Source: Cytophagaceae bacterium
Lineage (GTDB): Bacteria > Bacteroidota > Bacteroidia > Cytophagales > Cytophagaceae
DNA length: 64,000 bases
Direction: 5' to 3'
NCBI GenBank assembly: GCA_029237685.1
Contig: JAQZBV010000003.1
Span: forward strand, 1-64,000
The position numbers and the translations under genes are program-made. The notes under the pieces were generated by a model. The model saw only the letters and a program-made list of their open reading frames with translations, was not told where the DNA came from and did no database searches. Positions 6,221 through 62,783 of the stretch are shown piece after piece (position 1 is the stretch's first letter; each line of letters starts with the position of its first letter).

Positions 6221-6231
6221 TTTTTCATACC

Positions 6232-6392
6232 ATCCTTTTTCTTTTCTTTTGCTCACCCAAAAGAAAAGAAACAAAAGAAAAGGGGCCACCAAAAGAAATG
6301 AGAGAAGAAATTGTGGCTCTAGATACTTTACGAAGTTAATTCCTAACGATTTCTTCTCTCATTCGCTCTTTTCCTGGACGCCAACCGCACCA
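6232..6392. repeat. Dispersed structured element, family B copy 1
   Basis: cccaaaagaaaagaaacaaaagaaaaggggccaccaaaa, perfect stem aatgagagaagaaat/atttcttctctcatt, then cgctcttttcctggacgccaaccgcacca. Confidence 0.85.
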
Positions 6393-16265: not shown

Positions 16266-16370
16266 AGTGGTACTGTTTAAATGTCCGTGTTAATTTTATA
16301 ATACAAACATAGTGTTGGATTCTGTAGTGATTTGGGAGGAAATCTGAGGAGATTCTGTAGATGGGAAAAA

Positions 16371-16437
16371 GTGGTCAGTGATCAGTTGTCAGTGGTCAGG
16401 ATCCATAGTACATGATTCCAGACCACTGATAACCCAA
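16371..16437. repeat. GTGGTCA-type heptad palindrome next to stop codon
   Basis: Left gtggtca gtgatca gttgtca gtggtca gg; right ccagaccactgataac. Confidence 0.85.
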
Positions 16438-38442: not shown

Positions 38443-38517
38443 GTAAAGGAGACTGTAATACTTATTTTGTCTGTAGACGGATAGAATTGATTCTTATTTT
38501 AAATGAGAGAAAAAATA

Positions 38518-38597
38518 GTGGTCAGTGGTCAGTTGTCAGGTGTCAGGTGATGTATCATAAAAATAATACTGATCACCGACAACTGACCACTGACCAC
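38518..38597. repeat. GTGGTCA-type heptad palindrome 5 nt from a stop codon
   Basis: Left gtggtca gtggtca gttgtca ggtgtca ggtgatg; right, reverse complement gtggtca gtggtca gttgtcg gtgatca g. Confidence 0.9.
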
Positions 38598-38601
38598 TTA
38601 T

Positions 38602-39372
38602 TTACTCAAATATCATATGTTTCACAGATTCGCCTGATTTGGCCAATTCCAACAGAGAATCGATACCAATGTTCAAGTGCTGAGCCACGAAGAACTGAGT
38701 GACTTTAGAATCGCTTTCTGCAGTCTTTACGCCATCCGGTTCCATGGGATTGTCGGATACCAGCAGCAAAGCGCCGTGCGGAATACTGTTCGCAAAGCCG
38801 ACAACAAAAATGGTGGCTGTCTCCATATCAATAGCCATGGTTTTAATGTTGCGCAAGTATTCTTTAAATTTCTCATCGTGTTCCCACACTCTCCGGTTGG
38901 TAGTATAAACCGTACCTGTCCAATAATCACGTTCATGTTTTTTGATGCAGGCAGATACCGCTTGTTGCAGACGAAAAGAAGGCAATGCCGGAATTTCTTT
39001 GGGTAAATAATCGTTACTTGTTCCATCACCGCGTATCGCTGCAATAGGCAGTATTAAATCACCTACTTTTGTTTTCTTAAGTCCACCGCATTTACCGAGA
39101 AACAAGGCCGCTTTGGGTTTGATGGCCGACAGCAAGTCCATGGCTGTTGCAGCAACGGCTGATCCCATACCGAAGTTTAAGATCGTGATATTACCGTGTG
39201 TGGCCGTTTGCATAGGTTTATCTTCGCCTAATACCGGCACATTGAATTTCTCAGCGAAAAGGTCAACGTAATTTCTAAAATTAACCAGGATGATGTATTC
39301 TCCGAATTTATCCAACGGCGTTCCCGTATAACGGGGTAACCAATTGTTGACAATTTCTTCTTTGGTTTTCAT
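38602..39372 (-). CDS. AMP nucleosidase-like phosphorylase-superfamily protein
   Basis: ALFLGKCGGLKKTKVGDLILPIAAIRGDGTSNDYLP; AIDMETATIFVVGFANSIPHGALLLVSDNP. Confidence 0.85.
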   Translation of the reverse strand: MKTKEEIVNNWLPRYTGTPLDKFGEYIILVNFRNYVDLFAEKFNVPVLGEDKPMQTATHGNITILNFGMGSAVAATAMDLLSAIKPKAALFLGKCGGLKKTKVGDLILPIAAIRGDGTSNDYLPKEIPALPSFRLQQAVSACIKKHERDYWTGTVYTTNRRVWEHDEKFKEYLRNIKTMAIDMETATIFVVGFANSIPHGALLLVSDNPMEPDGVKTAESDSKVTQFFVAQHLNIGIDSLLELAKSGESVKHMIFE

Positions 39373-39395: not shown

Positions 39396-39869
39396 TTGAT
39401 GATACCTCTTAATTTGCCGCCGTATGAATCTCGCATAGTCGATCAGGAAGATGGGAAGTATATCTTTGACATAATACGTAAAAAATACATTAAGTTGTTG
39501 CCTGAAGAATGGGTTAGGCAAAATTTTATCCACTTTTTAATTCATCACCGCCATTATCCTTCAGGTCTTTTTCGCATAGAACGCGGTGCTGTCAAGGCAT
39601 ACAGAAAGGGAAGGACGGATATTCAGGTTTGGAACAACGAAGGAAAACCTTTACTCATGGTAGAGTGTAAATCCTTCGAACTCGACTTAAATAAAAAAGC
39701 CATTTTACAGGCATCCGTATACAACCACGATTTAAGAGCTCGTTTTTTGGTGTTGACCAATGGGTTGAAGCATTTTGCGTTTGAGTTCTTTGAAGTAGAT
39801 GGTGTTTTAAGTTACAAGCCTTTAGCCGATATCCCTTTTTACGGGAGAGATCTAAAATCTGAAATCTGA
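39396..39869 (+). CDS. HsdR N-terminal-domain protein (PD-(D/E)XK-like)
   Basis: WVRQNFIHFLIHHRHYPSGLFRIERG...RTDIQVWNNEGKPLLMVECKSFE. Confidence 0.85.
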   Translation: MMIPLNLPPYESRIVDQEDGKYIFDIIRKKYIKLLPEEWVRQNFIHFLIHHRHYPSGLFRIERGAVKAYRKGRTDIQVWNNEGKPLLMVECKSFELDLNKKAILQASVYNHDLRARFLVLTNGLKHFAFEFFEVDGVLSYKPLADIPFYGRDLKSEI

Positions 39870-39932
39870 AATCTGAAATCAGATTAATCAAGGTGACTTA
39901 TTTTTCTGATCTCAGATTTCAGATCTCTGATA
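39855..39932. repeat. AAATCTG-type heptad palindrome filling a convergent junction and overlapping a stop codon
   Basis: aaatctg x3, aaatcag ... ctgatctcagatttcagatctctgatat. Confidence 0.9.
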
Positions 39933-39933
39933 T

Positions 39934-41019
39934 CTATATTCCAAACGCCTTCGCCACCGCCTCATACACCACTTTTCCTTTCACTACATTCAATCCTTTA
40001 GCGAGTTCAGGATTGGCTTTCGTTGCTTCTTCCCAGCCCTTATCTGCGATTTGTTTGATGTAAGGAAGGGTAACGGCGGAGAGTGCCATCGTAGAGGTGC
40101 GCGGTACGGCTCCTGGCATATTAGGGACGCAATAATGCAACACGCCGTTGACTTCGTATACCGGTTCTTTATGACTTGTTGCGCGTGTGGTTTCAATGCA
40201 ACCGCCCTGATCGATGGCTACGTCTACAACAACGGTACCGGGTGCCAAGGTTTTAATTTGTTCTGCCGATACGATCACCGGTGCCTTATCTCCGGGAACC
40301 AATACGGCACCGATGATTAAGTCTGCGTTCTGTAAAGCCAGTTCTATATGCGCCTGATTAGAAACAATGGTTTGCACGTTCTTGGGCATCACTTCATCGA
40401 GGTACCGAAGTCTGGTGAAGTTGACATCCAGTATGGATACCTGAGCCCCCATACCGGCTGCGATGCGCGCCGCTTGTGTGCCTACTGTTCCTCCGCCGAG
40501 CACCACGACTTTTGCTGCAGGAATGCCGGGAACTCCACCCAATAAGACTCCTTTGCCGCCGTTTTGTTTTTCCAAAAACCAGGCGCCTTGTTGCGTAGCC
40601 ATACGTCCTGCCACCTCTGACATTGGGGCTAGGAGAGGCAAGCAGCGATCATTTTTCTCTACTGTTTCATAAGCAATGCAGGTGGAGCCGCTTTTCATCA
40701 AAGCTTGTGTCAGCGACAAGGAAGAGGCGAGGTGTAAATAGGTAAATAAGATATGTTGTTCTTTGAGCAGCGGATATTCTGTTGCTAAGGGTTCTTTTAC
40801 TTTTACGATCAGGATGTTGTTGGCATATATTTCTTCCGCTGTATCGACAATGGATGCACCGGCCTTGCGATAGTCTTCATCTGTAAAGCCGGAGCCAGCT
40901 CCCGCATGCTTTTCAACCTGAACTTGATGTCCGAGCTGAGACAATTCTTTTACGCCTCCGGGAGTAGTAGATACACGGTACTCACCTTGTTTGATTTCTT
41001 TTGGAATTCCAATTTTCAT
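39934..41019 (-). CDS. ald: Alanine dehydrogenase
   Basis: MKIGIPKEIKQGEYRVSTTPGGVKEL; VVLGGGTVGTQAARIAAGMGAQVSILD; 361 aa. Confidence 0.95.
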   Translation of the reverse strand: MKIGIPKEIKQGEYRVSTTPGGVKELSQLGHQVQVEKHAGAGSGFTDEDYRKAGASIVDTAEEIYANNILIVKVKEPLATEYPLLKEQHILFTYLHLASSLSLTQALMKSGSTCIAYETVEKNDRCLPLLAPMSEVAGRMATQQGAWFLEKQNGGKGVLLGGVPGIPAAKVVVLGGGTVGTQAARIAAGMGAQVSILDVNFTRLRYLDEVMPKNVQTIVSNQAHIELALQNADLIIGAVLVPGDKAPVIVSAEQIKTLAPGTVVVDVAIDQGGCIETTRATSHKEPVYEVNGVLHYCVPNMPGAVPRTSTMALSAVTLPYIKQIADKGWEEATKANPELAKGLNVVKGKVVYEAVAKAFGI

Positions 41020-45976: not shown

Positions 45977-46110
45977 CTGTTTTAATTTTAGAGTATACCT
46001 TTAAGACGAAAAGTCTCACCTTTTATTTTACCAATCTATATTTTTTACTAGAATTAGTGATTTAGTTCTCCTATCTGCTAGGATACTGATAAGTTTTCTT
46101 TCCAATCCGT

Positions 46111-46272
46111 CCTCTTTCTTTTCTTTTGATCGCCCAAAAGAAAAGAAACAAAAGAAAAGGGCGCCACCAAAACCAATTAAAGAAGAGCCTTTGGGATCCT
46201 TTAAACGGCACGTAGTTAATTCCAAACAGGCTCTTCTTTAATTCGCTCTTTTCGTGGACGCCCACCGCACCA
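46111..46272. repeat. Dispersed structured element, family B copy 2
   Basis: cccaaaagaaaagaaacaaaagaaaagggcgccaccaaaa, stem aattaaagaagagcct/aggctcttctttaatt, cgctcttttcgtggacgcccaccgcacca. Confidence 0.85.
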
Positions 46273-46363: not shown

Positions 46364-46405
46364 AACAACTAACAACTAACAACTAACAACTAACAACTAA
46401 CAACT
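46364..46405. repeat. Tandem heptad array, six perfect copies of aacaact, 6 nt from a stop codon
   Basis: aacaact x6; no opposing arm visible. Confidence 0.95.
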
Positions 46406-46411
46406 ATTTTC

Positions 46412-50035: not shown

Positions 50036-50131
50036 AGATATTTTATTTTTAATAGGTATAGTTTTAATATTGATGTATTGAAATTAAAGATAAGAATGTT
50101 CTTGTTAATAGAATCACTTTGGTGAAAATTT

Positions 50132-50244
50132 GGGCGTGCCCCTTCGGGTCGGGCTATCCGCTGCAAGTCCTCGCTCGGAACAATCTGTAGTGATAGTATT
50201 AAGTAGAGGCTCGCTGTGGGCTTTACGCTACTATCCCTCACGCA
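50132..50244 (-). repeat. Dispersed structured element, family A copy 6 (divergent)
   Basis: gggcgtgccccttcgggtcgggctatccgctgcaagtcctcgctcgga...ctatccctcacgcaa. Confidence 0.65.
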
Positions 50245-50266
50245 ACTTTTTATCCATTCTAAAAAA

Positions 50267-50657
50267 GCAGTGCATACCTGTAAGCCGGGTTCTGTCGAGT
50301 CTTATCATTTATCTGCGAGTCCTGTTGCCAGTACTCTTTAACGACCTACCCATTCAGCCTTCCGCCTTGCGGCGGATATTCAGCGAGCCGCTTTATATCA
50401 TAAAGACAGCTGAACCTATTTGGCCTTTCAACCCGTAAGGGTTACCCCAATGCCGGCTCTCACCGACACGAGTGAGCTCTTACCTCACTTTTTCACCCTT
50501 ACCATCCCGATAGCTATCGGGATGGCGGTTATTTTCTGTGGCCCTGTCTGTATAACGCCGAGGCGTCACCCTTCCCGTTAGGAAGTACGGCGCCCTGTGT
50601 TGCCCGGACTTTCCTCTGCCTCTGTATCGGAGACAGCGATAAGACAGTATGCACTGC
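50267..50657 (-). ncRNA. rnpB: Bacterial RNase P RNA (class A)
   Basis: Minus strand: gaggcagaggaaagtccgggcaacacagggc, ccacagaaaataaccgcc, aagggtgaaaaagtgaggtaagagctcac, agaacccggcttacaggtatgcactgc; P1 gcagtgcatac/gtatgcactgc. Confidence 0.97.
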
Positions 50658-50661
50658 GTGA

Positions 50662-50669
50662 CAAAGTTA
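50662..50669 (-). promoter_or_regulatory. Candidate -7 box for rnpB (TAACTTTG on minus strand)
   Basis: caaagtta on plus strand immediately upstream of the RNA 5' end. Confidence 0.55.
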
Positions 50670-50676
50670 GTAAAAA

Positions 50677-50780
50677 AGTTGTTAGTTGTTAGTTACTAGT
50701 TATTTGAAATAATAAGTTGTTTTCTTAAACTAATAACTAACAACTAACAACTAACAACTAACAACTAACAACTAACAACT
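50677..50780. repeat. AGTTGTT/AACTAAC heptad palindrome
   Basis: Left agttgtt agttgtt agttact agttatt; right aactaat then six aactaac plus aact. Confidence 0.95.
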
Positions 50781-53741: not shown

Positions 53742-53757
53742 TACAGCGGTTAGACGT

Positions 53758-53802
53758 AAAAAAGAAAAGGGATGATATCACTATCATCCCTTTTCTTTTT
53801 TA
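53758..53802. terminator. Bidirectional terminator between convergent genes
   Basis: aaaaaagaaaagggatgatatcactatcatcccttttcttttttac. Confidence 0.85.
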
Positions 53803-53815
53803 CTAATTTTTTTAT

Positions 53816-53836
53816 AACTAACAACTAACAACTAAT
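53816..53836. repeat. Short heptad array (aactaac x2, aactaat) directly abutting a stop codon
   Basis: aactaac aactaac aactaat; last base is part of minus-strand stop TAA. Confidence 0.85.
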
Positions 53837-62718: not shown

Positions 62719-62783
62719 GGGACGAGCTAGGAGCTAGGAGGGACGACATCGTTAATCGTACCTCCTAGCTCCTAGCTCGTCCC
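62719..62783. repeat. GAGCTAG-type heptad palindrome
   Basis: gggacgagctaggagctaggagg ... cctcctagctcctagctcgtccc, perfect 23-bp arms. Confidence 0.95.

Follow-up and report, generated by a model that had tools for sequence, protein, structure and literature searches.

Exchange of heptad families at conserved gene-end addresses: inverted arrays of seven-base units at stop codons in a Cytophagaceae bacterium and its congeners

REP, REPIN and BIME sequences are extragenic palindromes, often situated at 3' ends. Among intergenic tandem repeats of prokaryotes, heptamers are the most abundant, and their function has no clear clue (PMC6344855). Direct repeats of the heptamer TAACTGA are found in Beggiatoaceae, Cyanobacteria and some Bacteroidetes; they are intergenic, some of them lie over stop codons, and the stops that they provide in all three frames at the ends of ORFs have been remarked on, while larger mixed heptamer arrays occur in some Bacteroidetes (MacGregor 2015, PMC4679880). 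In the P6b stem-loop of the Nostoc tRNA-Leu intron, one class of heptads has repeatedly been replaced by another (Kaasalainen 2015, PMC4476775). GGGAATC and GGGGAYT heptamer repeats were described in Xanthomonas and Nostoc; in Xanthomonas, two species retain the heptads between the same genes, with variable length and sequence, and some are inverted (Rehm 2015, PMC4692102). Precedents exist both for heptamers that lie at stop codons and for the replacement of heptad classes, the latter in a single Nostoc intron stem. In the literature searched, which lay largely outside subscription journals, no description was found of family replacement at gene ends with conservation of the address.

We analysed a window of 64,000 nucleotides of a Cytophagaceae bacterium (the whole stretch from position 1 to 64,000 of contig JAQZBV010000003.1, assembly GCA_029237685.1). 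The element examined most closely lies between an HsdR_N-domain gene and its convergent partner ald, and is laid out as follows.

39399-39869, plus strand: HsdR_N-domain gene (HSDR_N_2, PF13588), 157 aa when read from the TTG listed at 39396
39850-39883, plus strand: left heptad arm of ATCTGAA units that point inward, in the same sense as HsdR_N
39884-39902, no strand: loop between the two arms
39903-39935, minus strand: right heptad arm, TTCAGAT on the plus strand (ATCTGAA on the minus strand), overlapping the ald stop
39934-41019, minus strand: alanine dehydrogenase gene (ald), convergent with HsdR_N

The HsdR_N ORF ends ...gat cta aaa tct gaa atc TGA. Its stop, at 39867-39869, lies within the left period-7 array, and the final residues LKSEI are read from the heptads of the left arm, which confirms the sequence-only reading that the heptads supply the stop codon and last residues of this gene. 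The array located by that reading is real, but it starts a few bases earlier, at 39850. The other arm had been thought to end a few nucleotides from the ald stop; instead it reaches into this codon (CTA on the plus strand at 39934-39936, TAG on the minus strand). The two arms bear out that the ATCTGAA palindrome takes up the whole convergent junction. Folded as single-stranded DNA, the junction gives −18.8 kcal/mol (z = −3.85), and none of 200 dinucleotide shuffles was as good. The 14-mer AATCTGAAATCTGA, with one mismatch allowed, was found at 42 places in the 4.02 Mb genome (199 contigs), against one place for the reversed control. In the sampled window and sibling stretches, 57 of 92 period-7 arrays were palindromic, and palindromic arrays of periods 4-6 and 8-12 numbered none in about 100 in the same sample. 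A chance repeat is ruled out by the fold z-score, by the count of AATCTGAAATCTGA against its control and by the restriction of the palindromes to period 7. Tested as a short tandem heptanucleotide repeat, the element shows tandem units of seven bases, an intergenic location and many copies; no Rfam family matched it.

With the TAACTGA repeats the present elements share seven-base units, intergenic location and, in some copies, overlap with stop codons. However, the TAACTGA repeats are mostly direct, in one orientation and before start codons, and the element at HsdR_N/ald, with unit ATCTGAA, inverted and at stop codons, is not one of them; the related TCAGTNN units are present elsewhere in this genome. 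What sets the elements here apart is that their arms are inverted and lie at the 3' ends of genes, that there are several families, and that one family replaces another between species. The Nostoc P6b stem resembles them in its degenerate heptads paired as a stem and in class replacement at the same address, but it is one intron stem, whereas many gene-end junctions across one genus are concerned here. The repeats described by Rehm are likewise intergenic heptads between the same genes, some inverted, but they form one G-quadruplex-forming unit family without family replacement. REP, REPIN and BIME sequences, also extragenic palindromes often at 3' ends, are without period-7 units, and the elements here are without a fixed body.

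The sequence-only reading held further that the element had rewritten the C-terminus of a protein. This holds for a dispensable tail, but not for the loss of a longer conserved C-terminus. In the 157-residue protein the HSDR_N_2 domain stops at residue 147, ahead of the heptad-written tail. In 109 HsdR_N loci from Bacteroidota, a tail of 0-15 residues with no conserved sequence follows IPxY, and the idea that repeat-free orthologs are longer is not supported. Because the tails vary in this way, it is a non-conserved tail that was rewritten and no domain was truncated; truncation of a longer conserved C-terminus is ruled out. This genome (G000) was compared with three congeners (G001, G002 and G003), all four being MAGs. 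The KSEI tail is absent from all three congeners: after the conserved IPFY the protein ends GRDLKSEI* here, and NVVKGEE*, NISEE* and SSGQLSVDSDQK* in the congeners, each tail being largely written by the heptads of its own junction. As judged from these sequences, the dispensable tail is rewritten, and differently in several sister lineages, which provides a route for the repeated rewriting of protein C-termini.

The heptads of the HsdR_N/ald junction are GTGAAGR in G001 and G003 and AGTGGTC in G002. One junction in four species carries three unrelated heptad families, with inverted arms in all. The RNA folds of this junction in the four species lie between −24 and −37 kcal/mol, whereas mononucleotide shuffles average −7.5 to −16.8. 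In G001, ald ends AFNL*, the same as in G003, and its stop TGA lies within a heptad arm.

Eight unit families could be described in 596 kb of the four species, by hand-made models fitted to the same data that they describe. Written inward, they are:

A, AGTNNTC; B, AGNNGTT; H, AAGTNNT (A, B and H differ little)
C, GARATCW (the HsdR_N/ald element); D, GARAACT; E, GARATGW (C, D and E differ little)
F, GTGAANR; G, GAGSKAS

Further elements of this kind lie in the window.

1316-1609, no strand: AGTGGTC arms around an ordinary terminator-like hairpin (1544-1578)
16370-16433, no strand: element of the AGTGGTC family
38517-38598, no strand: element of the AGTGGTC family that follows immediately on the stop of the PNP_UDP_1 gene
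38602-39372, minus strand: PNP_UDP_1 (phosphorylase superfamily) gene
46364-46406, minus strand: single arm, AACAACT (TTAGTTG family)
50677-50780, no strand: element of the AGTTGTT family; the same site has AGTGGTC in G001 and ATCWGAR in G002
53816-53835, minus strand: single arm of the TTAGTTG family, beside an ordinary hairpin (53756-53803)
62724-62778, no strand: element of the GAGCTAG family; this site has GAGGTAC in G002

The site of the element at 38517-38598 has a different heptad family in two congeners, and that of 53816-53835 has the same TTAGTTG family in G001 and G003. In locus L186 (G047), at 1486-1581, TTAGTTG, TTCGTTG and TCAGTTG units are mixed and may be intermediates between families.

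Conservation of the address was examined by mapping the junctions of five G000 stretches to the congeners, that is, in sampled stretches with approximate gene calls. When the G000 junction was occupied by an array, the sibling junction was occupied in 35 of 52 species-pairs, against 5 of 105 when it was empty; these pairs are not independent, four of the five stretches had been picked for ATCTGAA-type sites, but the contrast is conditioned on G000. With loci as the unit of counting, and for 3' junctions of 60 nt or more, a sibling was occupied in 16 of 20 and 4 of 27 cases respectively (p = 1.4e-5). Some sibling junctions are without any detected array. In 11 of the 35 occupied pairs both junctions had one and the same dominant family, with 7.1 expected from shuffling within genomes (p = 0.036); with families merged into four superfamilies this was so in 22 of 35, with 16.0 expected (p = 0.017). 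More than one family was present at 15 of 18 loci, and more than one superfamily at 9 of 18. On these counts some inheritance is visible, together with much replacement. An address conserved at the stop codon with an exchanged family separates position and structure from sequence, and the four species offer natural comparisons for testing the function and mechanism of heptads.

The families themselves are genome-wide traits. Sites with three TTAGTNG units number 293 in G000, 219 in G003, 41 in G001 and 0 in G002; elsewhere, a single further genus of the family has 11 and the remaining 14 genomes have 0. Sites with three GTGAAGR units number 21 in G001 and 20 in G003, with none in G000 and G002. 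The ATCWGAR pattern is found in all four species and in no other searched genus of the family. TCAGTNN was found in 88 of 346 Bacteroidota genomes, the reversed control, itself a heptad pattern, being also found in good number. Some sister-MAG contigs break within heptad arrays, at the end of G003:C159 (L064 18360-18424) and in G003:C42 (L066 3395-3473); because of such breaks, the heptad counts are likely to be underestimates. The Y1 transposase (PF01797) was considered as a distinguishing agent and rejected: it matched in 10 of 10 genomes tested, with or without the TTAGTNG, ATCWGAR and GTGAAGR patterns, and its counts do not discriminate heptad-bearing genomes.

Arrays were found at 31 of 74 convergent junctions, 37 of 179 tandem junctions with a gap of at least 25 nt, 10 of 74 divergent junctions and none of 64 closely spaced tandem junctions, counts that are approximate because they rest on a home-made gene caller. 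Relative to the stop codon, 56 of 62 inward arms after a gene begin at −36 to +16 nt, the majority no more than 5 nt away, and at heptad-free gene ends terminator-like stems start at a median of 23 nt, with 34% within 16 nt. The orientation was inward in 66 of 70 gene-end arrays, and the stop codon was contained in 24 of the 70. Stops in at least two frames were present in 110 of 133 arrays read inward, against 83 of 133 read outward. Because seven is not a multiple of three and most families contain an inward stop triplet, an array that runs into a reading frame closes it within about three units; the HsdR_N tail would be a by-product of the array ending the frame.

Opposed neighbouring arms had the same family in 28 of 29 pairs. 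The arm-to-arm match of unit variants averaged 18.3, against 17.7 with the right arms shuffled within the family (72 of 300 shuffles as good), and an exact mirror between arms was seen only in the GAG family. Both arms belong to one family, yet their unit variants are ordered differently; it follows that neither arm is just a recent copy of its partner. Maintenance of the stem by compensatory change is not supported, there being no pair-by-pair covariation past the shared family, the GAG family excepted. A hairpin with a T-tract was present at 73-82% of heptad-free gene ends and at 68-75% of those with heptads, and in some cases an ordinary terminator, separate from the heptads, lies between or next to the arms. 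It follows that the heptads are not simply the terminator. Identification of the element as a terminator by exclusion is not supported, since heptad-free ends carry the hairpin and T-tract as often.

Composition, placement, inward polarity, conservation of the address and the swap of family between sister species are all observed directly. To account for them we favour, at about an even chance, the reading that the element is a gene-end stem-loop whose family is replaceable within genomes, what matters being the position and the inverted stem and not how the unit is spelled. Its two arms, built of degenerate seven-base units, are inverted round a short loop, each starting at or in a stop codon, and one family would give way to another that spreads in the genome concerned. 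If stem position matters and letters do not, one family can stand in for another. A bidirectional 3'-end stem is the simplest reading because of the placement, the polarity, the inverted arms and the indifference to letters, and the role most likely suggested by the sequences would be that of a bidirectional 3'-end, terminator-like or mRNA-end structure. Replacement may possibly have proceeded by ectopic copying, by mobile elements or by trans-acting rewriting.

Small non-autonomous mobile elements (MITE- or REPIN-like), one per family, that insert by preference at gene ends or into hairpins already present could also give such a pattern, different families having landed at the same junction in different species. 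The genome-specific copy numbers of the families, the different families taken by one address and the sibling junctions without a detected array are consistent with this, as is the common starting phase of 17 of 19 A-family arms. We consider it unlikely, however: no target duplication or conserved body was noticed in the junctions read; loops differ, and arms vary in the number and order of units; PF01797 is found equally in family members without TTAGTNG, ATCWGAR or GTGAAGR matches; and a start so near the stop codon would be unusual for random insertion. It seems improbable that the arrays grew neutrally, like microsatellites, by slippage and template switching at hairpins, without function and with selection only purging heptads inside genes. 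Such growth does not predict strong conservation of the address with loss of the family, nor arms that start at the stop codon, nor a whole family missing from one of four sister genomes, although mixed-family arrays exist, no intergenic tandem repeat of prokaryotes is commoner than heptads (PMC6344855), and slippage through polymerase contacts has been proposed in work cited by PMC4692102.

That a trans-acting agent, either a copying system or an enzyme that carries its own template, sets the heptad spelling genome-wide and writes or rewrites inverted arms at stop codons, so that a change of agent would respell conserved addresses, we regard as decidedly improbable. The omega repressor of plasmid pSM19035 reads WATCACW heptads, one unit per seven base pairs. 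By analogy, the arrays might bind a putative protein that reads one unit per 7 bp, and units with fixed and free positions, such as TCAGTNN, would suit such binding, as would the lack of a match between arms at the free positions. Yet a large number of proteins would be required, given how many unrelated families share the same addresses, and the arrays are placed at gene ends, not promoters; this explanation is highly improbable.

In more distant Bacteroidota, TTAATGG heptad palindromes lie at the HsdR_N stop in loci L136 and L158, and in L053 (G138, 1937-2066) a palindrome of the eight-base unit GGTGARRT is found at this stop. Palindromes at the HsdR_N stop are thus sometimes seen independently in other lineages. 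The eight-base palindrome of L053 suggests that the unit length is not always seven.

In the window, the RNase P RNA gene (class A, minus strand) occupies 50265-50655, and a heptad arm at 50669-50713 lies before its 5' end. Unlike most elements, this arm is identical over about 45 nt in G000 and G003, non-heptad bases included. Two dispersed repeats were also observed, each with dozens of copies in the sister genomes: one of about 170 bp, with core CCCAAAAGAAAAGAAACAAAAGAAAAGGGCGCC, at 46099-46272 with a second copy at 6222-6392, and one of about 115 bp (GGGCGTGCCCCTTCGGGTCGGGCTATCC...) at 50130-50246, beside the RNase P RNA gene.
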